Source: SAR86 cluster bacterium (GTDB lineage Bacteria; Pseudomonadota; Gammaproteobacteria; Magnimaribacterales; D2472). From it: a stretch of DNA of 46,774 nucleotides. The notes beneath the pieces were generated by a model. It was given only the letters and a program-made list of their open reading frames with translations. It searched no databases and had not been told where the DNA came from. The stretch is taken from the NCBI GenBank assembly GCA_003331545.1, contig QOPC01000004.1, positions 1 through 46,774 on the forward strand, read 5' to 3'. Shown piece after piece: positions 2,805 through 13,029 of the stretch; position 1 is the stretch's first letter; every line of letters begins with the position of its first letter. Position numbers and translations under genes: made by a program.

Positions 2805-3812
2805 ATGTCAGATAAAGATAAAAACCTAACGGAAGCCCTATCCCAAATAGAAAAGCAGTTTGGAAAAGGCACTGTAATGAAAATGGGGGATAGGGAGATT
2901 GTTGATATTCCATCTGTTTCAACAGGATCACTTGGGCTAGATATTGCTCTTGGTATAGGAGGTCTTCCAAAAGGAAGGGTTGTTGAAATTTTTGGCCCTG
3001 AGTCATCAGGCAAGACAACATTAACATTACAAGCCATAGCCGAATGTCAAAAAGCAGGTGGCACGGCAGCATTTATTGATGCTGAGCATGCCCTAGATCC
3101 AAATTATGCTGAAAAACTTGGAGTAAATGTTGATGAACTTTTACTTTCTCAACCTGATACTGGTGAGCAAGCCCTTGAAGTTACAGATATGCTTGTAAAA
3201 TCAGGTAGTGTTGACTTAGTTGTTATTGATTCTGTGGCAGCGCTTACTCCTCGAGCTGAGATTGAAGGAGATATGGGTGATCATCATATGGGACTTCAAG
3301 CCCGCTTAATGTCTCAAGCATTGAGAAAAATTACAGGTAACATTCAACGTTCTAATTGTATGGTAATTTTTATTAATCAGATCAGAATGAAAATAGGCGT
3401 AATGTTTGGCAATCCTGAAACCACTACCGGCGGTAATGCCCTAAAGTTCTATTCTTCAGTTCGTTTAGACATTCGAAGGATCGGTGCAGTCAAAGAAGGC
3501 GAGGAAGTAGTTGGAAATGAAACCAGAGTTAAGGTAGTCAAGAACAAGGTTTCACCTCCATTTAAACAAGCTGAATTTCAAATCATGTACGGTGAAGGAA
3601 TTAATGTTGAGGGAGAAATTTTAGAACTTGGACAAAAACTTGAATTAGTAGAAAAATCAGGTTCCTGGTACAGTCACAATGGAGAAAAGATTGGACAAGG
3701 CAAAGTCAATGCAAGCAAGTTTTTAAAAGAAAATTCTAAGATTAGAGACGCATTAATTAAAGAGATCAGAAAGGCTTACATACCTACAGTCAAGAAAGCC
3801 GCAAAGAAATAA
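2805..3812 (+). CDS. recA: Recombinase RecA
   Basis: Walker A 'GPESSGKTT', '[29 protein letters not shown]', '[36 protein letters not shown]'. Confidence 0.99.
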
Positions 3813-5055: not shown

Positions 5056-6336
5056 TTATAGATTTTTGAAATGTTCGAAGATAGTTTCAATATCTTCATA
5101 AGCACCAATCGAGGTTTTACCATCTCTGTGCATTAACTCTATTTCATTTTTTTCTAGATATTGCTTGCCTATAATAATATTCATTGGAATACCAATTAAT
5201 TCAGCATCTTTCATTTTGGTTCCATAACCATCTTTCCTATCATCTAAAATAACCTCATACCCCATAGAAGATAATTTCTCATACATGTTAATTGAAGCGC
5301 TTGCTATTTTTTCATCTTTTTCAAAACCAATTGCAACTATATTTACATCAAACGGAGTTATTGATTCAGGCCAAATTATGCCCTTGTCATCATTATTTTG
5401 CTCTATTGCAGCTGCTACAAGTCTTGAGACTCCGATGCCATAACAGCCCATATAAAGATTTTGTGCTTTACCCTCTTTATCAAGAACATTAGCATTCATA
5501 AGGTTTGTATACACTTCTCCCAATTGAAAAATATGTCCAACTTCAATCCCTTTTTTAATTTCTATAACACCTTTGCCATCGGGAGATGGCTTGCCTTGAA
5601 GAGACTGAAGATCCTCTCCATCTTTTAATAGAAGTTCTGTATTGATAGCAAACTCAGAGGAATCGCTAACAGCAATAGTATCCTCTCCATTTTCAGCTAA
5701 AACATGAAATTCTTCAGAAACATCACCACCAATTGCACCAGAATCTGCCTTTACAATCTTATACTTCAATCCTAATCTATCAATAATTTTTTTGTATGTT
5801 TCTCTCATCAATTGGTATGACTCATCTAGAGAACTTTGATTTATATTAAAGCTATATGAGTCCTTCATTAGAAATTCTCTTCCTCGCATAACACCATATC
5901 GAGGCCTGACTTCATCTCTAAATTTAGTTTGAATTTGATAAATATTTAACGGTAATTCTTTATAACTTTTAACATTATTTCTAATTAAATCTGTTATTAC
6001 TTCCTCATGAGTAGGTCCTAAGCAAAAATCTCTATCGTGTCTATCTTTGATTCGTAATAGTTCAGATCCCATCTTTTCCCATCTTTGTGTTTCTTCCCAA
6101 AGTTCTCTTGGTTGAACCATTGGCATTAACACTTCTTGAGCCTCAGATAAATTCATTTCCTCTCTGATAATATTTTCAATTTTTCTAAGAACTCTCAAGC
6201 CTAGGGGAAGCCACGTGTATATTCCAGAGCTAACTTTTCTGATCATTCCTGCTCTTAGCATTAATTTATGACTAACTACTTCTGCATCTTGAGGCGTATC
6301 TTTTAAAGTTGGTAAAAAAATCTTAGACCAAAACAT
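5056..6336 (-). CDS. proS: Prolyl-tRNA synthetase lacking the INS editing domain
   Basis: '[25 protein letters not shown]', '[23 protein letters not shown]', '[18 protein letters not shown]'; only 426 aa. Confidence 0.96.
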
Positions 6337-6390
6337 TTTTTATATTTGAAATTTCATTTAGTTTATAATTCTATATTTTTTTAGAGACTT

Positions 6391-6681
6391 ATGCCGATTT
6401 ATGAATATAAATGCTCAAAATGTGAGCATCAATTTGAAATTATTCAACGATTTTCAGATAATCCACTTGAAAGTTGCCCTGAGTGCGGTCAAAAATCCAT
6501 AAAAAAATTAGTTTCTGCACCATCTTTTAGGCTTAAAGGAGGAGGCTGGTATGAAACTGATTTTAAAACTGGCTCTAAAAAGAATATAGTAGATGTTAAG
6601 GATGAAAAATCTAAACAGCCTAGCGAAAAAACAAAAACTACTGAAAAATCTAAAGAGAAAAACTCAGATACAAAAACTTAA
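6391..6681 (+). CDS. FmdB-family zinc-ribbon protein with Lys/Ser-rich tail
   Basis: 'MPIYEYKCSKCEHQFEIIQRFSDNPLESCPECGQKSIKKLVSAPSFRLKGGGWYETDFK'. Confidence 0.92.
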   Translation: MPIYEYKCSKCEHQFEIIQRFSDNPLESCPECGQKSIKKLVSAPSFRLKGGGWYETDFKTGSKKNIVDVKDEKSKQPSEKTKTTEKSKEKNSDTKT

Positions 6682-6696
6682 ATAAGAGAAAGAAAA

Positions 6697-8463
6697 ATGC
6701 GTTCACATTACTGCGGAGATATTAATAGATCAGATATTGGTAGCGATATTGAAATCTCTGGTTGGGTTCATAAGAGGAGAGACCACGGAGGTGTAATTTT
6801 TCTAGATATCCGTGACTTACATGGAATAGTGCAAGTAGTATTTAATCCAGATTTAAAAGAAGTTTTTGATAAAGCAGATTCTTGTAGAAGTGAGTTTGTG
6901 GTAAATATTCAGGGATTAGTTAGAGAAAGAATTGATGGAGCCATAAATACTAAGATGGCAACAGGTGAGATTGAATTAGAGGCAAAAAGTTTAAATATTT
7001 TTAGCTCAGCAGTTACCCCTCAATTTCCACTTGATGATTACCAAGATGTTAATGAGGATATAAGACTTAAAAATAGGTTTGTAGATTTGAGACGTCCTGA
7101 TGTTAATCAGAGATTAGTCAAGCGATCTAAAATAACCTCAAAAATAAGATCGTTCTTAGAAAAAAATAATTTTAATGAAATAGAGACTCCTATTTTAACA
7201 AGAGCAACCCCAGAAGGAGCAAGGGATTATCTGGTTCCAAGTAGGGTGCATCCTGGAGAATTTTTTGCATTACCTCAATCTCCTCAATTATTTAAACAAT
7301 TACTAATGATTGGTGGGCTGGACAAATATTATCAAATAGCTAAGTGCTTCAGAGATGAGGATCTGCGAGCTGATAGACAACCTGAATTTACTCAGGTAGA
7401 CATAGAAGCTTCTTTTATTTCAACTGAGGATATTATTAATCTAGGGGAAGAACTGATAATCTCTTTACTCTCTGAATTCACTGATTATCAAAAAACTAAG
7501 GTTCCAAGAATTCCATATAAAGAGTCCATGGAGAAATATGGTTGTGATAAGCCAGATCTTAGAATTCCACTGGAACTTATCGATATTTCTGCTCTTGTCA
7601 AAGACGAAGAATTTAAAGTATTTTCTGGACCAGCCAATGATCCTTCCTCAAGAGTTGTGGCTTTGAAAGTTCCAGACGCTGCCGATATGACTAGAAAAAA
7701 AATTGATGCATATACAGACTATGTTGGCAAATTGGGTGCTAAAGGATTGGCTTATATTAAGGTAATTGAGGTTGATAAAGAGAATGGACTGCAATCTCCT
7801 ATCCTCAAATTTTTTAAGGAGGAAACAATTCATTCGATCATCTCTAATTTAGATGTTCAAAATAACGATATAATTTTTTTCGGCGCTGGAAAGACAAATA
7901 CTGTCAATCTATCAATGAGTGCATTGATAAAGAAACTCGGAGAGGATTTAAATCTAATGGAATGCTCTTGGGCTCCATGTTGGATCATTGATTTTCCAAT
8001 GTTTGAGAGAAATAAAGAAAATAATCTTACTTCTTTACATCACCCATTTACCTTACCGGCAGTATCGGTTAATGAATTAAAAAATGATCCAGATAACTCA
8101 TTGGCTTGTGCATATGATTTTGTTTTGAATGGGTATGAACTTGGCGGGGGATCCTTAAGAGTTTATGAACCCACTATGCAAAAAGAGATATTTTCAATAC
8201 TAGGGATTTCTGAGGACGAAGCTAAAGAAAAATTTGGCTTTCTGCTATCAGCATTGTCATCCGGATGTCCACCTCACGGGGGTATAGCTTTCGGCTTAGA
8301 TAGAATTGTGATGCTCTTGTCCGATACAACTAATATTCGCGATGTGATAGCTTTCCCTAAAACACAAAGCGCTTCTTGCTTGCTTACAGATGCTCCTAGC
8401 ATGGTTTCAAACAACCAACTTGATGAGCTTAATATCAAATCGACTTTTGAACCGGAACAATAA
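6697..8463 (+). CDS. aspS: Aspartyl-tRNA synthetase
   Basis: 588 aa; '[10 protein letters not shown]...[30 protein letters not shown]', '[23 protein letters not shown]', 'GLDRIVMLL'. Confidence 0.98.
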
Positions 8464-9201
8464 ATGGCTGGACATTCCAAATGGGCAAATATTAAGCATC
8501 GAAAAGCAAGGCAAGATGCATCCCGAGGAAAGGTTTGGACTAAGGTTATAAGGGAGATTACCGTTGCAGCAAAAGGTGGTCCTGACCCCAGTGATAATCC
8601 AAGGCTGAGGCTTGCATTAGATAAAGCAAATGCAGCAAATATGCCTAAAGATACAATCAAACGAGCAATTCAAAAGGGTTCTGGAACAGGCGAAATGGGC
8701 ATCATTGATGAATTAACTTTTGAGGGTTACGGCCCTAATGGAGTTGCTATTCTTGTTGAAACAATGACGGATAATAGAAATAGAACTGTTGCAGATGTTC
8801 GCCATGCTTTTTCAAAATTTGGAGGGAATATGGGAACAGATGGCTCTGTTGCTTACCTCTTTAATAAGCTGGGAATTATTCATATATCTCTTTCCTATGA
8901 TGAGGACCAAATTATGGAAATTTCACTGGAAGCTGGCGCAGATGATATTTCTACCACAGATGATTATTTTGAAATTATTACCACGCCAGCAAATCTATCT
9001 AACCTTGTTGAAGCATTTAAGAAAAATAACATTGAAACATTGCTTACTGAAAATACAATGAGAGCTGATACTTTGGTTAATTTGGATCACGAAGCATCTG
9101 AAAAAGTTTTTAAAATTATGAATTTTATGGATGACCTGGATGATGTCCAAGAGGTTCATACGAATGCAGAGTTTCCAGAAGATTTTTCTGGAGAGGGGTA
9201 A
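8464..9201 (+). CDS. yebC: YebC/PmpR family transcriptional/translation regulator
   Basis: 'MAGHSKWANIKHRKARQDASRGKVWTKVIREITVAAKGGPDPSDNPRLRLALDKANAANMPKDTIKRAI'. Confidence 0.97.
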   Translation: MAGHSKWANIKHRKARQDASRGKVWTKVIREITVAAKGGPDPSDNPRLRLALDKANAANMPKDTIKRAIQKGSGTGEMGIIDELTFEGYGPNGVAILVETMTDNRNRTVADVRHAFSKFGGNMGTDGSVAYLFNKLGIIHISLSYDEDQIMEISLEAGADDISTTDDYFEIITTPANLSNLVEAFKKNNIETLLTENTMRADTLVNLDHEASEKVFKIMNFMDDLDDVQEVHTNAEFPEDFSGEG

Positions 9202-9203
9202 TT

Positions 9204-9626
9204 TTGTCAATCAATTCTAGAACCAAAGGAGCAAATTTTGAAAGAGAGATTGGCAACTTGCTTGTAGAACAGCTAGGTTTAAATCAGCCAGTTAAAAGAA
9301 TTCTAGAGCAAACCAGGACAAAAGAATTACCAGACTTGAAGTTAGGAAGATGGTGTTTGGAATGCAAAAGATATGGTGACGGCTCTGAGCCACCTCAAGA
9401 TTGGTGGGATCAAGTTTTAGCAGCTACCGGAGATGGAGAATTTCCAGCTTTGATATATAAGTTTAATCGTCGACCAATTAAAGTGAGAATACTTGCAGGC
9501 AGTATAATTCCTGAGCTAGATTTTTCTCCAATGACGATTGATTTAATGTGGGAAGATTTTGTAAAAATTCTTCAATACCTTTTTCAAGTAGATATAGAGC
9601 AACATGAATCCTCGTTTCAGGCCTAA
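9204..9626 (+). CDS. PD-(D/E)XK superfamily nuclease, putative phage-type Holliday-junction resolvase
   Basis: TTG start; 'MSINSRTKGANFEREIGNLL' + 'PDLKLGRWCLECKRYG' (D44...E53-x-K55) + 'WWDQVLAAT...PALIYKFNRRPIKVRI', resembling phage PDDEXK resolvase-like proteins. Lies where ruvC/A/B normally is. Confidence 0.72.
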   Translation: MSINSRTKGANFEREIGNLLVEQLGLNQPVKRILEQTRTKELPDLKLGRWCLECKRYGDGSEPPQDWWDQVLAATGDGEFPALIYKFNRRPIKVRILAGSIIPELDFSPMTIDLMWEDFVKILQYLFQVDIEQHESSFQA

Positions 9627-10020
9627 AGATTTTCATTGTAGAGTTTTCGTAGAGGATACTGATTTTCAGGGCGTTGTTTATCATGCAAATTATCTCAAAT
9701 ACCTTGAGAGGGCTCGATCTCAGTTTCTCATTGAGAATAATTTATCTCAAACAAATGCAATGTTGAAAGACAATGAGTCTTATGTAGTCAAATCCATCAA
9801 CCTTTCATATTTTCATCCAGCAAAATTAGAGGATGAATTAATCGTTTGCACTGAAATTGAGCTATTTAGCAAAGCTAGAGCTATATTTTTTCAATCTGTT
9901 TTAAATTCAAAAAATGATACACTCATCTGCAAGGGCGAAGTTGAAGTTTGCTACATTCAAAATGACTCAGGCAAACCAAAATCTTTTCCCTTGGGTTTAA
10001 TAAAATTATTTCAGAACTAA
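9604..10020 (+). CDS. ybgC: Acyl-CoA thioesterase YbgC (Tol-Pal associated)
   Basis: Hot-dog thioesterase motif 'VFVEDTDFQGVVYHANYLKYLERARSQFL'; overlaps the upstream nuclease by 23 nt. Confidence 0.94.
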   Translation: MNPRFRPKDFHCRVFVEDTDFQGVVYHANYLKYLERARSQFLIENNLSQTNAMLKDNESYVVKSINLSYFHPAKLEDELIVCTEIELFSKARAIFFQSVLNSKNDTLICKGEVEVCYIQNDSGKPKSFPLGLIKLFQN

Positions 10021-10021
10021 T

Positions 10022-10702
10022 ATGGATGACTTTTCAGTTTTAGATTTATTTCTGCAGGCAAGCCTTATTGTTCAAGCTGTAATGGTCTTATTATTAGTAG
10101 TTTCAATTATTTCATGGATTGCTATTTTTGAAAGATATTTCAATCTAAGCCGAATTAAACAAGCCAATCAAGCATTTGAAAAAGAATTTTGGTCTGGCAA
10201 AGATCTTAATCAACTGTATGAAAATATCATTGAAACTCCCAGTGATGAATTAGTTGGCTCTTTGCGAGTTTTTAAGCATGGATTTGAAGAATTCTTAAGA
10301 CTAAGCAAGGGTCAACAAATTACAATTGAGGATCTTGAAAGTGTCAATAGAGCCATAAGAGTATCTTTGGCAAGAGAGGAGGAGTCATTAATGCTTCATC
10401 TTCCATTTCTTGCTAACGTTGGATCAGTGAGTCCATATGTTGGACTTTTCGGAACTGTTTGGGGGATTATTAACTCTTTTCAAGGACTTTCAGATGCAAC
10501 TCAGGCAACAATTAATGCCGTTGCTCCTGGAATATCAGAAGCACTCGTAGCAACCGCTTTGGGTCTTTTTGCTGCAATTCCAGCAGTGGTTGCCTATAAC
10601 AGGTTTGCTTCAGACTCAGATACTCAATTGCAGCAATCTTCTGTGTTTGGCGAAGAGTTAGCCAGCATTCTTTATAGACAAACGGTTAAAGCAAAGCTTT
10701 GA
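10022..10702 (+). CDS. tolQ: Tol-Pal proton channel subunit TolQ
   Basis: 'FLANVGSVSPYVGLFGTVWGIINSFQGL', 'APGISEALVATALGLFAAIPAVVAYNRF'. Confidence 0.97.
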   Translation: MDDFSVLDLFLQASLIVQAVMVLLLVVSIISWIAIFERYFNLSRIKQANQAFEKEFWSGKDLNQLYENIIETPSDELVGSLRVFKHGFEEFLRLSKGQQITIEDLESVNRAIRVSLAREEESLMLHLPFLANVGSVSPYVGLFGTVWGIINSFQGLSDATQATINAVAPGISEALVATALGLFAAIPAVVAYNRFASDSDTQLQQSSVFGEELASILYRQTVKAKL

Positions 10703-11121
10703 TATATAGAATTGGAAAAAGAAAAAAGCTGAACGCTGACATTAATGTTGTTCCATACATTGATGTAATGTTAGTTCTATTGATTATATTTATGGTGCTT
10801 TCTCCTCTTCTTATTCAAGGCATTGAGGTAAACCTCCCTAAAACAGATACGACCAAAATGTCAGTTTCAAGCGAGCCACTTGTAATTTCAATTGACAGAC
10901 AAGGCGATTACTTCATTAATCTTGGCGAAGAGCAATTACCAATTTCTTTAGTGGAGTTAAAAAATAAAGCTAAAATTATTTATCAAGCAAATCCTGATAT
11001 TGAAATTGTTTTCAAAAGTGATGCAAGGGTACCTTTTGACTATGTGGCAAAGGGCATGGCAAGTATTCAAAGTTTAGGAATTCAAAAAATAGGAATTATC
11101 ACCTCGGGCTATGATAGCTAA
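10699..11121 (+). CDS. tolR: Tol-Pal subunit TolR
   Basis: ExbD/TolR-like 'ADINVVPYIDVMLVLLIIFMVLSPLL'; TTG start overlapping the tolQ stop. Confidence 0.95.
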   Translation: MIYRIGKRKKLNADINVVPYIDVMLVLLIIFMVLSPLLIQGIEVNLPKTDTTKMSVSSEPLVISIDRQGDYFINLGEEQLPISLVELKNKAKIIYQANPDIEIVFKSDARVPFDYVAKGMASIQSLGIQKIGIITSGYDS

Positions 11122-11746
11122 TTACAGATATTTACAAGCATCGCTATTTTCTTTTTGTATTCATGCAGCTCTTTTTTTATATATATATGGCACCTTTGAT
11201 ACCAACACATCTCAAACATTGTTGATATCAAAGCCTCTTCAAATAGAGCTAAAGTTTGATCTGCCAACTCAAGATAAAAAAAAACTAATCCCTGCCGCCG
11301 CTAAGGTTGCAGAAACCTCAGTAGAGAAAATCCCCCAAGAAAATGTCTACTCTAAAGTAAATGATTCTATTCGCACTAAAGAAAGCAATGCTTTGATTGA
11401 ATCTAGCATAGCTAATCTTTTATCAGAAGAAAGTGAGACTGAAATGAACAAAGAGCAACAAGAAATATCAATGTATGCGCAAAAAATTATCTCGACCATA
11501 GAGAGTGCTTGGATGAAACCAAGAAATATACCTGAGGATCTAGTTGCAAATTTAAGACTTAAAATTCGATCTTCTGGAAGGATTGTTGAAGTAGATCTTA
11601 TAAAAAGTAGCGGCAATCTAAGATTCGATAACTCATCCATGCAAGCTGTAAGAAGAGTGGAAACTTTTAATTTCTTTAATTCAATGCCCAAAACCATATA
11701 TGAGAATGAGTTTCAAACCGTTGCAATAAGCTTTAATCCATCATGA
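11111..11746 (+). CDS. tolA: TolA, short form
   Basis: N-terminal TM, C-terminal TolA/TonB-like domain 'MYAQKIISTIESAWMKPRNIPEDLVANLRLKIRSSGRIVEVDLIKSSGNLRFDNSSMQAVRRVE'; position between tolR and tolB. Confidence 0.88.
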   Translation: MIANYRYLQASLFSFCIHAALFLYIYGTFDTNTSQTLLISKPLQIELKFDLPTQDKKKLIPAAAKVAETSVEKIPQENVYSKVNDSIRTKESNALIESSIANLLSEESETEMNKEQQEISMYAQKIISTIESAWMKPRNIPEDLVANLRLKIRSSGRIVEVDLIKSSGNLRFDNSSMQAVRRVETFNFFNSMPKTIYENEFQTVAISFNPS

Positions 11747-13029
11747 AACAAAACTTATTTTTAGCTACTTTATTGCTTATGCCAAACATGATTTTTGGTG
11801 AACTCTTTTTAGAGATTACGAAAGGCTCAGAGGATCCTTATAAAATAGCGATGATTTCATTTGAGGGTGACTCAAGAATTTCAAAGCAACTTAATAAAAT
11901 AATGCGAAATGACCTCATTCGCACGGGCGAGTTTTATATACTTGATGAAGGGCTATTGTTACCAGTAAATTTTATCAATGATGAGCTAGTTTATAGTGAT
12001 TGGAAGTTGCTCGGAATGGATTATTTAGTAACTGGCAAGATAGTCAAGTTAAGTAATTCTGTAGATATTAGCTATGAAATCTATGATGTTCATAAAAAAA
12101 GAAAGCTCCGAAGTTCAAAAGTTTTTGGTATACCCAATCAAATTAGACAGCTTGCTCATTACACAAGCGATGGAATCTATGAATCAATAACTGGTATCAA
12201 AGGCATTGCTGCTACAAGACTTTTATATGTCAATGAAATAAAAGATTCTAAATCAATTTCTGCATACAAGTTGATGTTGGCTGATTCTGATGGTGCTAAT
12301 GAAAAAACTCTTTTATCAAGCTCTGAGCCAATTATCTCACCCTCTTGGTCACCTGATGGCAAAAAAGTAGCATATGTATCATTTGAAACAGGAATCGCAA
12401 AAGTTTTTATTCAAGAAATTGCTTCGGGAAATAGGGAGGCAGTATTATCAAAGGAGACTCAGATAAGTTCTCCCTCATGGTCTCCAGACGGTAAATACCT
12501 TTCTTTGACTCTTTACCAAGATGGAAATGCAGAAATTTATATTTTACGATTGCGCGATAAGACCCTAACAAGGATGACCAATCAATTCGCAATTGATACT
12601 GAGTCTTCTTGGTCTCCTAAAGGAAATAAAATTCTATTCACAAGTGGTCGCTCAGGTTCACCTCAAATATATGAGCTAGATCTTAGAAAATTAAATCCAA
12701 AAGCAAAACGTATTTCATTCGAGGGAACCTATAATGCAAAAGCTTCATATCTTCCCAAGGAGGAAGGAATTATTTTTGTTCATCGGTCTGATGATGGCTT
12801 ATTTCATATTGCTCTCAAATATAAAAGAGAGAACTTTATCAGGATCTTGACTGAAGCAAAAATGGACGAATCTCCTAGTGTTGCTCCTAATGGTAATATG
12901 GTAATCTATGGTATTAAAGAAGAAAATCTAAGCATGCTCGCCGGATTTAGTCTTAGCGGTGCCAAATTTAAGTTACCTGCATCAAGTGGCGAAGTGAGAG
13001 AGCCTGCCTGGTCAAACTTTTTAAGATAA
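11743..13029 (+). CDS. tolB: Tol-Pal periplasmic beta-propeller TolB
   Basis: Repeated 'PSWSPDGKKVAYVSFE', 'PSWSPDGKYLSL', 'SSWSPKGNKILFTSGRSGSPQIYELDL'. Confidence 0.97.
   Translation: MKQNLFLATLLLMPNMIFGELFLEITKGSEDPYKIAMISFEGDSRISKQLNKIMRNDLIRTGEFYILDEGLLLPVNFINDELVYSDWKLLGMDYLVTGKIVKLSNSVDISYEIYDVHKKRKLRSSKVFGIPNQIRQLAHYTSDGIYESITGIKGIAATRLLYVNEIKDSKSISAYKLMLADSDGANEKTLLSSSEPIISPSWSPDGKKVAYVSFETGIAKVFIQEIASGNREAVLSKETQISSPSWSPDGKYLSLTLYQDGNAEIYILRLRDKTLTRMTNQFAIDTESSWSPKGNKILFTSGRSGSPQIYELDLRKLNPKAKRISFEGTYNAKASYLPKEEGIIFVHRSDDGLFHIALKYKRENFIRILTEAKMDESPSVAPNGNMVIYGIKEENLSMLAGFSLSGAKFKLPASSGEVREPAWSNFLR

Follow-up and report, generated by a model that had tools for sequence, protein, structure and literature searches.

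Wherever RecA exists, the RuvAB branch-migration motor is treated as near-universal. A survey of 117 bacterial genomes identified two RecA-positive genomes without RuvAB, both of which keep RecG (PMC1193525). In E. coli, RusA replaces RuvABC provided that RecG is present (PMC5055574), and the small phage nuclease Hjc_15-6 cuts junctions in vitro (PMC8805305). Non-orthologous replacement of a resolvase is already known as well, i.e., for RecU. For a phage Hjc-like nuclease taking over the position of the entire ruvCAB block, and doing so twice in free-living lineages, we found no earlier report. Likewise, no paper in our literature search linked SAR86 to RuvC or RuvB; such papers may exist elsewhere.

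Here, we study a locus from a SAR86 cluster bacterium. The window, i.e., the whole stretch of DNA analysed (46,774 nt), belongs to contig C28 of a 0.86-Mb genome with a completeness of 71%. It contains an open reading frame of 140 aa with a TTG start (9204-9626, forward strand, as are all window genes given in the following), which begins 2 nt 3' of the yebC stop codon and shares a 23-nt overlap with ybgC. The upstream boundary of this slot is yebC (8464-9201), the gene directly 5' of ruvC in outgroups, which is itself preceded by the conserved aspS (6697-8463). Downstream, the slot is bounded by ybgC (4HBT thioesterase, 9604-10020), followed by the conserved operon tolQ-tolR-tolA-tolB (10022-13029). 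The same window encodes a RecA that is 70% identical to E. coli RecA (2805-3812) and is the expected source of junctions needing resolution. Given the evidence below, the open reading frame likely encodes an Hjc-like Holliday-junction resolvase of phage origin that became fixed on the chromosome and took the place of ruvC, ruvA and ruvB in the ancestor of SAR86.

The putative active site consists of E13 (codon 9240-9242; the catalytic Glu of motif I), D44 (9333-9335; motif II, PD) and E53-C54-K55 (9360-9368; motif III, ExK), which correspond to Glu10, Asp40 and E53-V-K55 of Hjc_15-6, respectively (PMC8805305). E13, D44, E53 and K55 are invariant in an alignment of 26 diverse homologues, as are W67, W68 and Q70. 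A preliminary description of the window had placed these four residues, the gene's distance to yebC and overlap with ybgC, the adjacent tolQRAB genes and the nearby RecA exactly as we find them. Across one genus, the slot nuclease shows a dN/dS of 0.03-0.05, i.e., strong purifying selection. This low ratio, the homologues in 92/100 genomes of the order (see below) and a family match above the curated cut-off establish the open reading frame as a real gene.

The family in question is PDDEXK_15 (PF24608, a phage putative PDDEXK endonuclease), which the SAR86 protein matches with 30.9 bits (cut-off 27 bits, E 3e-7) and which is matched by all homologues of the alignment (26/26 at E <= 0.01). It also matches phrog_244 (PHROG 244), annotated as 'RusA-like Holliday junction resolvase', with E 1.6e-11. 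The RusA profile (PF05866) does not match the protein, and E. coli RusA has no match in the complete SAR86 genome G032, which carries the slot nuclease. Since no RusA homologue is found there, the PHROG label is to be read as 'resolvase' rather than as membership in the RusA family. Neither of the archaeal Hjc profiles (PF01870, NF040854) matches the SAR86 protein, and searching the PDB with its sequence or profile gave no significant match to any solved resolvase. Among defence families, one weak chance match was the only one obtained. NCBIfam assigns no name to the protein, i.e., annotation pipelines overlook the slot nuclease.

PD-(D/E)XK folds serve many different functions. The AlphaFold2 model of the SAR86 protein, predicted as a single chain, is confident (pLDDT 88.6), and the top 13 neighbours found by Foldseek in the PDB are all archaeal Hjc (2wcw, 2wiw, 2eo0, 1gef; probability 0.87-0.99). 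The match itself is modest, with a best E of 1.7e-3 (probability 0.99) and TM values of 0.4-0.6. When compared to a viral structure library, 22 models are found at E <= 1e-3, 2 of which are named Holliday junction resolvases. The protein is thus predicted to adopt a restriction-endonuclease fold, with Hjc closest among solved structures.

To assess the distribution of the gene, we used 100 genomes of the order from four families and 20 genera. The slot nuclease is present in 92/100 of them and in 38/40 of the high-quality ones. Among the eight genomes without it, two are at 90% or more complete; the gene is likely absent from the eight because of a missing contig. In all chromosomal loci examined over the four families (49/49), the nuclease lies between yebC and ybgC or tolQ, and the same position is observed in 80/80 loci of named SAR86 genomes. 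In family f4 (L048, L059), no ybgC was detected between nuclease and tolQ, such that the slot reads yebC-nuclease-tolQ. Outside of the order, the arrangement is yebC-ruvC-ruvA-ruvB-ybgC-tolQ-tolR-tolA-tolB in the outgroup genome G101 and aspS-nudB-yebC-ruvC-ruvA-ruvB in E. coli. That is, as read from these relatives, ruvCAB occupied the slot before the nuclease in SAR86 ancestry.

Next, we consider the loss of RuvABC. Profile searches for RuvC (PF02075), RuvA_N and RuvB_C detected none of the three above cut-off in the order (0/100 genomes each), while E. coli and other controls were positive. This count includes the single-contig genomes G026, G032, G061, G063, G065 and G068. Across the class, the same search method finds RuvC in 350/370 genomes. 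A lone RuvA_N match in G074 was rejected, as its 19.8 bits are below the cut-off of 23.6 bits. Matches to RuvB_N (PF05496) within the order reach about 31 bits or less and were judged to be generic AAA ATPases, given that the order has no RuvB_C and that RuvB finds weak tblastn matches in G032 (one of them coincides with dnaX). In this tblastn search of the complete G032 chromosome, E. coli RuvA and RuvC are unmatched and RuvB yields weak AAA-type matches, none of them full-length.

The preliminary description had assumed yebC-ruvC-ruvA-ruvB-ybgC-tolQRAB as ancestral order, which G101 displays directly, and had proposed that a phage-like Hjc/PDDEXK resolvase replaced RuvC in place, with loss of RuvAB. 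The searches, the predicted fold and the tree (see below) support this proposal. Of the observations named there as refuting, the two open to computation did not turn up: no ruvC, ruvA or ruvB above cut-off is found elsewhere in the 100 genomes, and the predicted fold is of the restriction-endonuclease type.

A second lineage provides a comparison. Two RuvC-less genomes, G133 and G349, are members of family f38 (Gammaproteobacteria, about 1 Mb; family genomes 0.7-1.1 Mb). Here, the slot holds a different PDDEXK_15 protein of 104 aa (L148:1477-1791, reverse strand; L149:1498-1812, forward strand), which is found in the slot of all f38 genomes having yebC (9/9), and the genome-wide search, which covered RuvC, found it in 0/12 f38 genomes. 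In the sister families f149 and f168 of the same order, RuvC is present in 8/8 genomes and the slot reads yebC-ruvC-ruvA(-ruvB). The f38 protein matches Hjc_15-6 (7bgs) directly (E 9e-5), scores below the Hjc cut-offs (19.9 vs. 21.1 bits for PF01870, 16.6 vs. 70 bits for NF040854), and has phage relatives that carry Holliday junction resolvase annotations. Its AlphaFold2 model was set aside as too poor to use (pLDDT 45.6). Aligning SAR86 and f38 slot proteins with hhalign gives a probability of 95.5% (E 1.4e-8, 90 columns). In the tree, the two nucleases fall into different regions of a family dominated by phage sequences, each among phage proteins, and a single clade of the two is rejected (AU p 6.6e-7). 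The swap of ruv for a nuclease thus happened twice independently. A Fisher's exact test relating presence of the slot nuclease to lack of RuvC (7/8 vs. 3/350) yields p 7e-12, a value that ignores phylogeny and rests on two events. As for other RuvC-less genomes of the class, G102, G103, G120, G142, G149, G179, G337, G342, G384 and G414 are also without a yebC match, and G211 and G425 show partial yebC matches only. In the RuvC-less G161 (C1 about 6330-8500, L162), yebC is followed by an opposite-strand open reading frame that contains repetitive stretches; a nuclease is not found in the slot.

The same tree supports a phage origin of the SAR86 slot nuclease. The genes next to viral homologues (112 neighbours) most often belong to the families of primosomal and replication-initiation proteins, DNA polymerase, DnaB and primase-helicase; RecT, too, is among the top 25 neighbour families. 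For instance, the isolate phage CRP-811 encodes a PDDEXK endonuclease, a PD-(D/E)XK nuclease-like protein, an ssDNA-binding protein and a RepA helicase, while the homologue in phage C72C1 adjoins a replication initiation protein and lies near a Sak-like annealing protein. These neighbourhoods fit a role in recombination and replication; alone, they do not single out junction cleavage. One SAR86 genome also carries such a module: a second, divergent PDDEXK_15 gene (L057:4017-4436, G037 contig 4) is found in a prophage-like recombination/replication locus of the same family, together with a RecE-like exonuclease, an unassigned open reading frame and a primase/helicase. Furthermore, homologues on marine viral contigs (L281:4977-5417, L284:4995-5414) are placed inside the SAR86 chromosomal clade, and a SAR86-only clade is rejected (p 0.001). 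Such viral copies suggest gene exchange between SAR86 and phages.

We also surveyed the branch-migration motor RecG. All but two of the tested genomes from families f2-f4 have it, as do f38 and, within f1, the genera g1 and g8. Its wedge domain is found in 0/13 tested genomes of the SAR86 genera g2, g5, g6 and g7 but is present in other SAR86 families. In the complete genome G026, the surroundings of the G032 recG are preserved, with recG itself gone from between the same two flanking genes (gap at C1 about 1,124,778-1,124,831, i.e., L490:14778-14831). G026 was read in part, and a RecG that has moved to another site or has strongly diverged is excluded by profile search alone. With RuvAB absent and RecG missing, no known branch-migration motor was found in these genera. 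Since the substitution by RusA depends on RecG (PMC5055574), the RecG-less genera offer a test case in nature for a resolvase that works without a motor. We lean slightly towards the view that RecA-dependent recombination in g2, g5, g6 and g7 runs by one small phage-derived resolvase without a dedicated branch-migration motor, i.e., with neither RuvAB nor RecG.

Gene position alone does not imply shared function. We infer a resolvase role because the SAR86 protein shares its family with the f38 protein that matches a proven resolvase, and because of its Hjc-like predicted fold, its catalytic residues and the two independent ruvCAB replacements at one locus. On the sequence level, the SAR86 protein is linked to solved resolvases via common Pfam/PHROG families and via the f38 protein.

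In the alternative that survives best, the nuclease would cut branched DNA or flaps in general (T7 endonuclease I-like debranching, fork cleavage, recombination clean-up) and would sit in the slot by chance, with SAR86 junctions being resolved otherwise (RecG-driven migration into forks, YqgF) or tolerated. PD-(D/E)XK nucleases are diverse, and phage resolvases are typically promiscuous on branched DNA (PMC3864405). Moreover, YqgF, which could act as a resolvase, is present in G032, and some genera have RecG as well. However, most genomes have YqgF alongside RuvC/RecU, and it is no simple substitute (PMC1193525), several genera keep the nuclease without RecG, and the closest folds are those of Hjc. 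A chance location also does not sit well with one family filling the slot twice independently, exactly where ruvCAB was lost. We thus consider this explanation unlikely.

Far less probable still is that streamlining removed ruvCAB since there is little recombination, with the nuclease being an unrelated acquisition (e.g., a gene for defence or one domesticated from a phage) that plays no part in recombination. SAR86 genomes are indeed small (0.7-1.8 Mb), and the G032 chromosome lacks more than RuvABC: RusA, RecC, RecJ and RecQ are without any match, and RadA, RecB, RecD and RecN yield weak or partial matches, none convincing. That is, RecBCD, RecJ, RecN and RadA are missing along with RuvABC. 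Yet G032 keeps RecA, RecF, RecO, RecR, PriA and XerCD; RecG and YqgF are present in it as well. The strong purifying selection, the near-universal and position-locked presence over four families and the single weak defence-family match argue against an unrelated acquisition, too.

Finally, the window's genome being 71% complete could hint at ruvCAB genes hidden elsewhere, but such an artefact of incomplete genomes is effectively refuted by 0/100 positive genomes, single-contig ones included and controls positive, by the full tblastn of G032 and by the 350/370 RuvC recovery of the same method.

Returning to the preferred reading of a phage-derived resolvase in place of ruvCAB, the enzyme would form a homodimer carrying two PD-(D/E)XK active sites (E13, D44, E53, K55; Mg2+). 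It would recognise by shape the four-way junctions that arise from RecFOR-RecA exchange, or reversed forks, and would nick two opposing strands, with the products being sealed by ligase. In doing so, it would serve as the main resolvase of the cell and would not need the RuvAB motor. In lineages that retain RecG, junctions could be moved by RecG; in genera without it, the enzyme would act on freely migrating junctions.

RuvC, RuvA and RuvB are thus lacking from an entire order of bacteria that abound in the ocean, and RuvC is independently lacking from a second lineage. This makes it testable whether free-living bacteria can do without motor-driven branch migration, and whether a core function of the chromosome can pass to resolvases from phages. 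Should the motor-less reading for g2, g5, g6 and g7 hold, a phage Hjc-like nuclease taking the place of all of ruvCAB would be a repeatable streamlining route in free-living bacteria.

Among known systems, Hjc_15-6 (Thermus phage Tth15-6, PDB 7bgs/7bnx; PMC8805305) resembles the SAR86 protein in being a small PD-(D/E)XK protein with E-...D-ExK motifs and an N-terminal KGxxxE helix, in its phage origin and archaeal-Hjc-like fold, and in its sequence match to the f38 slot protein. It differs in that it is a phage gene with the motif SD/EVK instead of PD/ECK; furthermore, its sequence does not significantly match that of the SAR86 protein directly, and the latter has a C-terminal two-helix extension of its own. 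Archaeal Hjc (PF01870; 1gef, 2wcw, 2wiw) provides the best solved fold matches, the same catalytic constellation and resolution by a single enzyme, whereas the slot proteins are under the Hjc family cut-offs and are encoded on a bacterial chromosome. RuvC within RuvABC shares the chromosomal position and presumably the role, but differs in fold and family (RNase H-like vs. PD-(D/E)XK), and SAR86 keeps no RuvAB motor. RecU in Firmicutes is likewise a small dedicated resolvase and a non-orthologous replacement of RuvC; there, however, RuvAB is kept and RecU is rarely located beside ruvAB (PMC1193525), whereas in SAR86 the whole ruvCAB block gave way to one gene in place. RusA, finally (E. coli prophage DLP12/phage 82), is also phage-derived and able to work without RuvAB, but it is silent in E. 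coli, whereas the SAR86 gene is fixed and replaces ruv.
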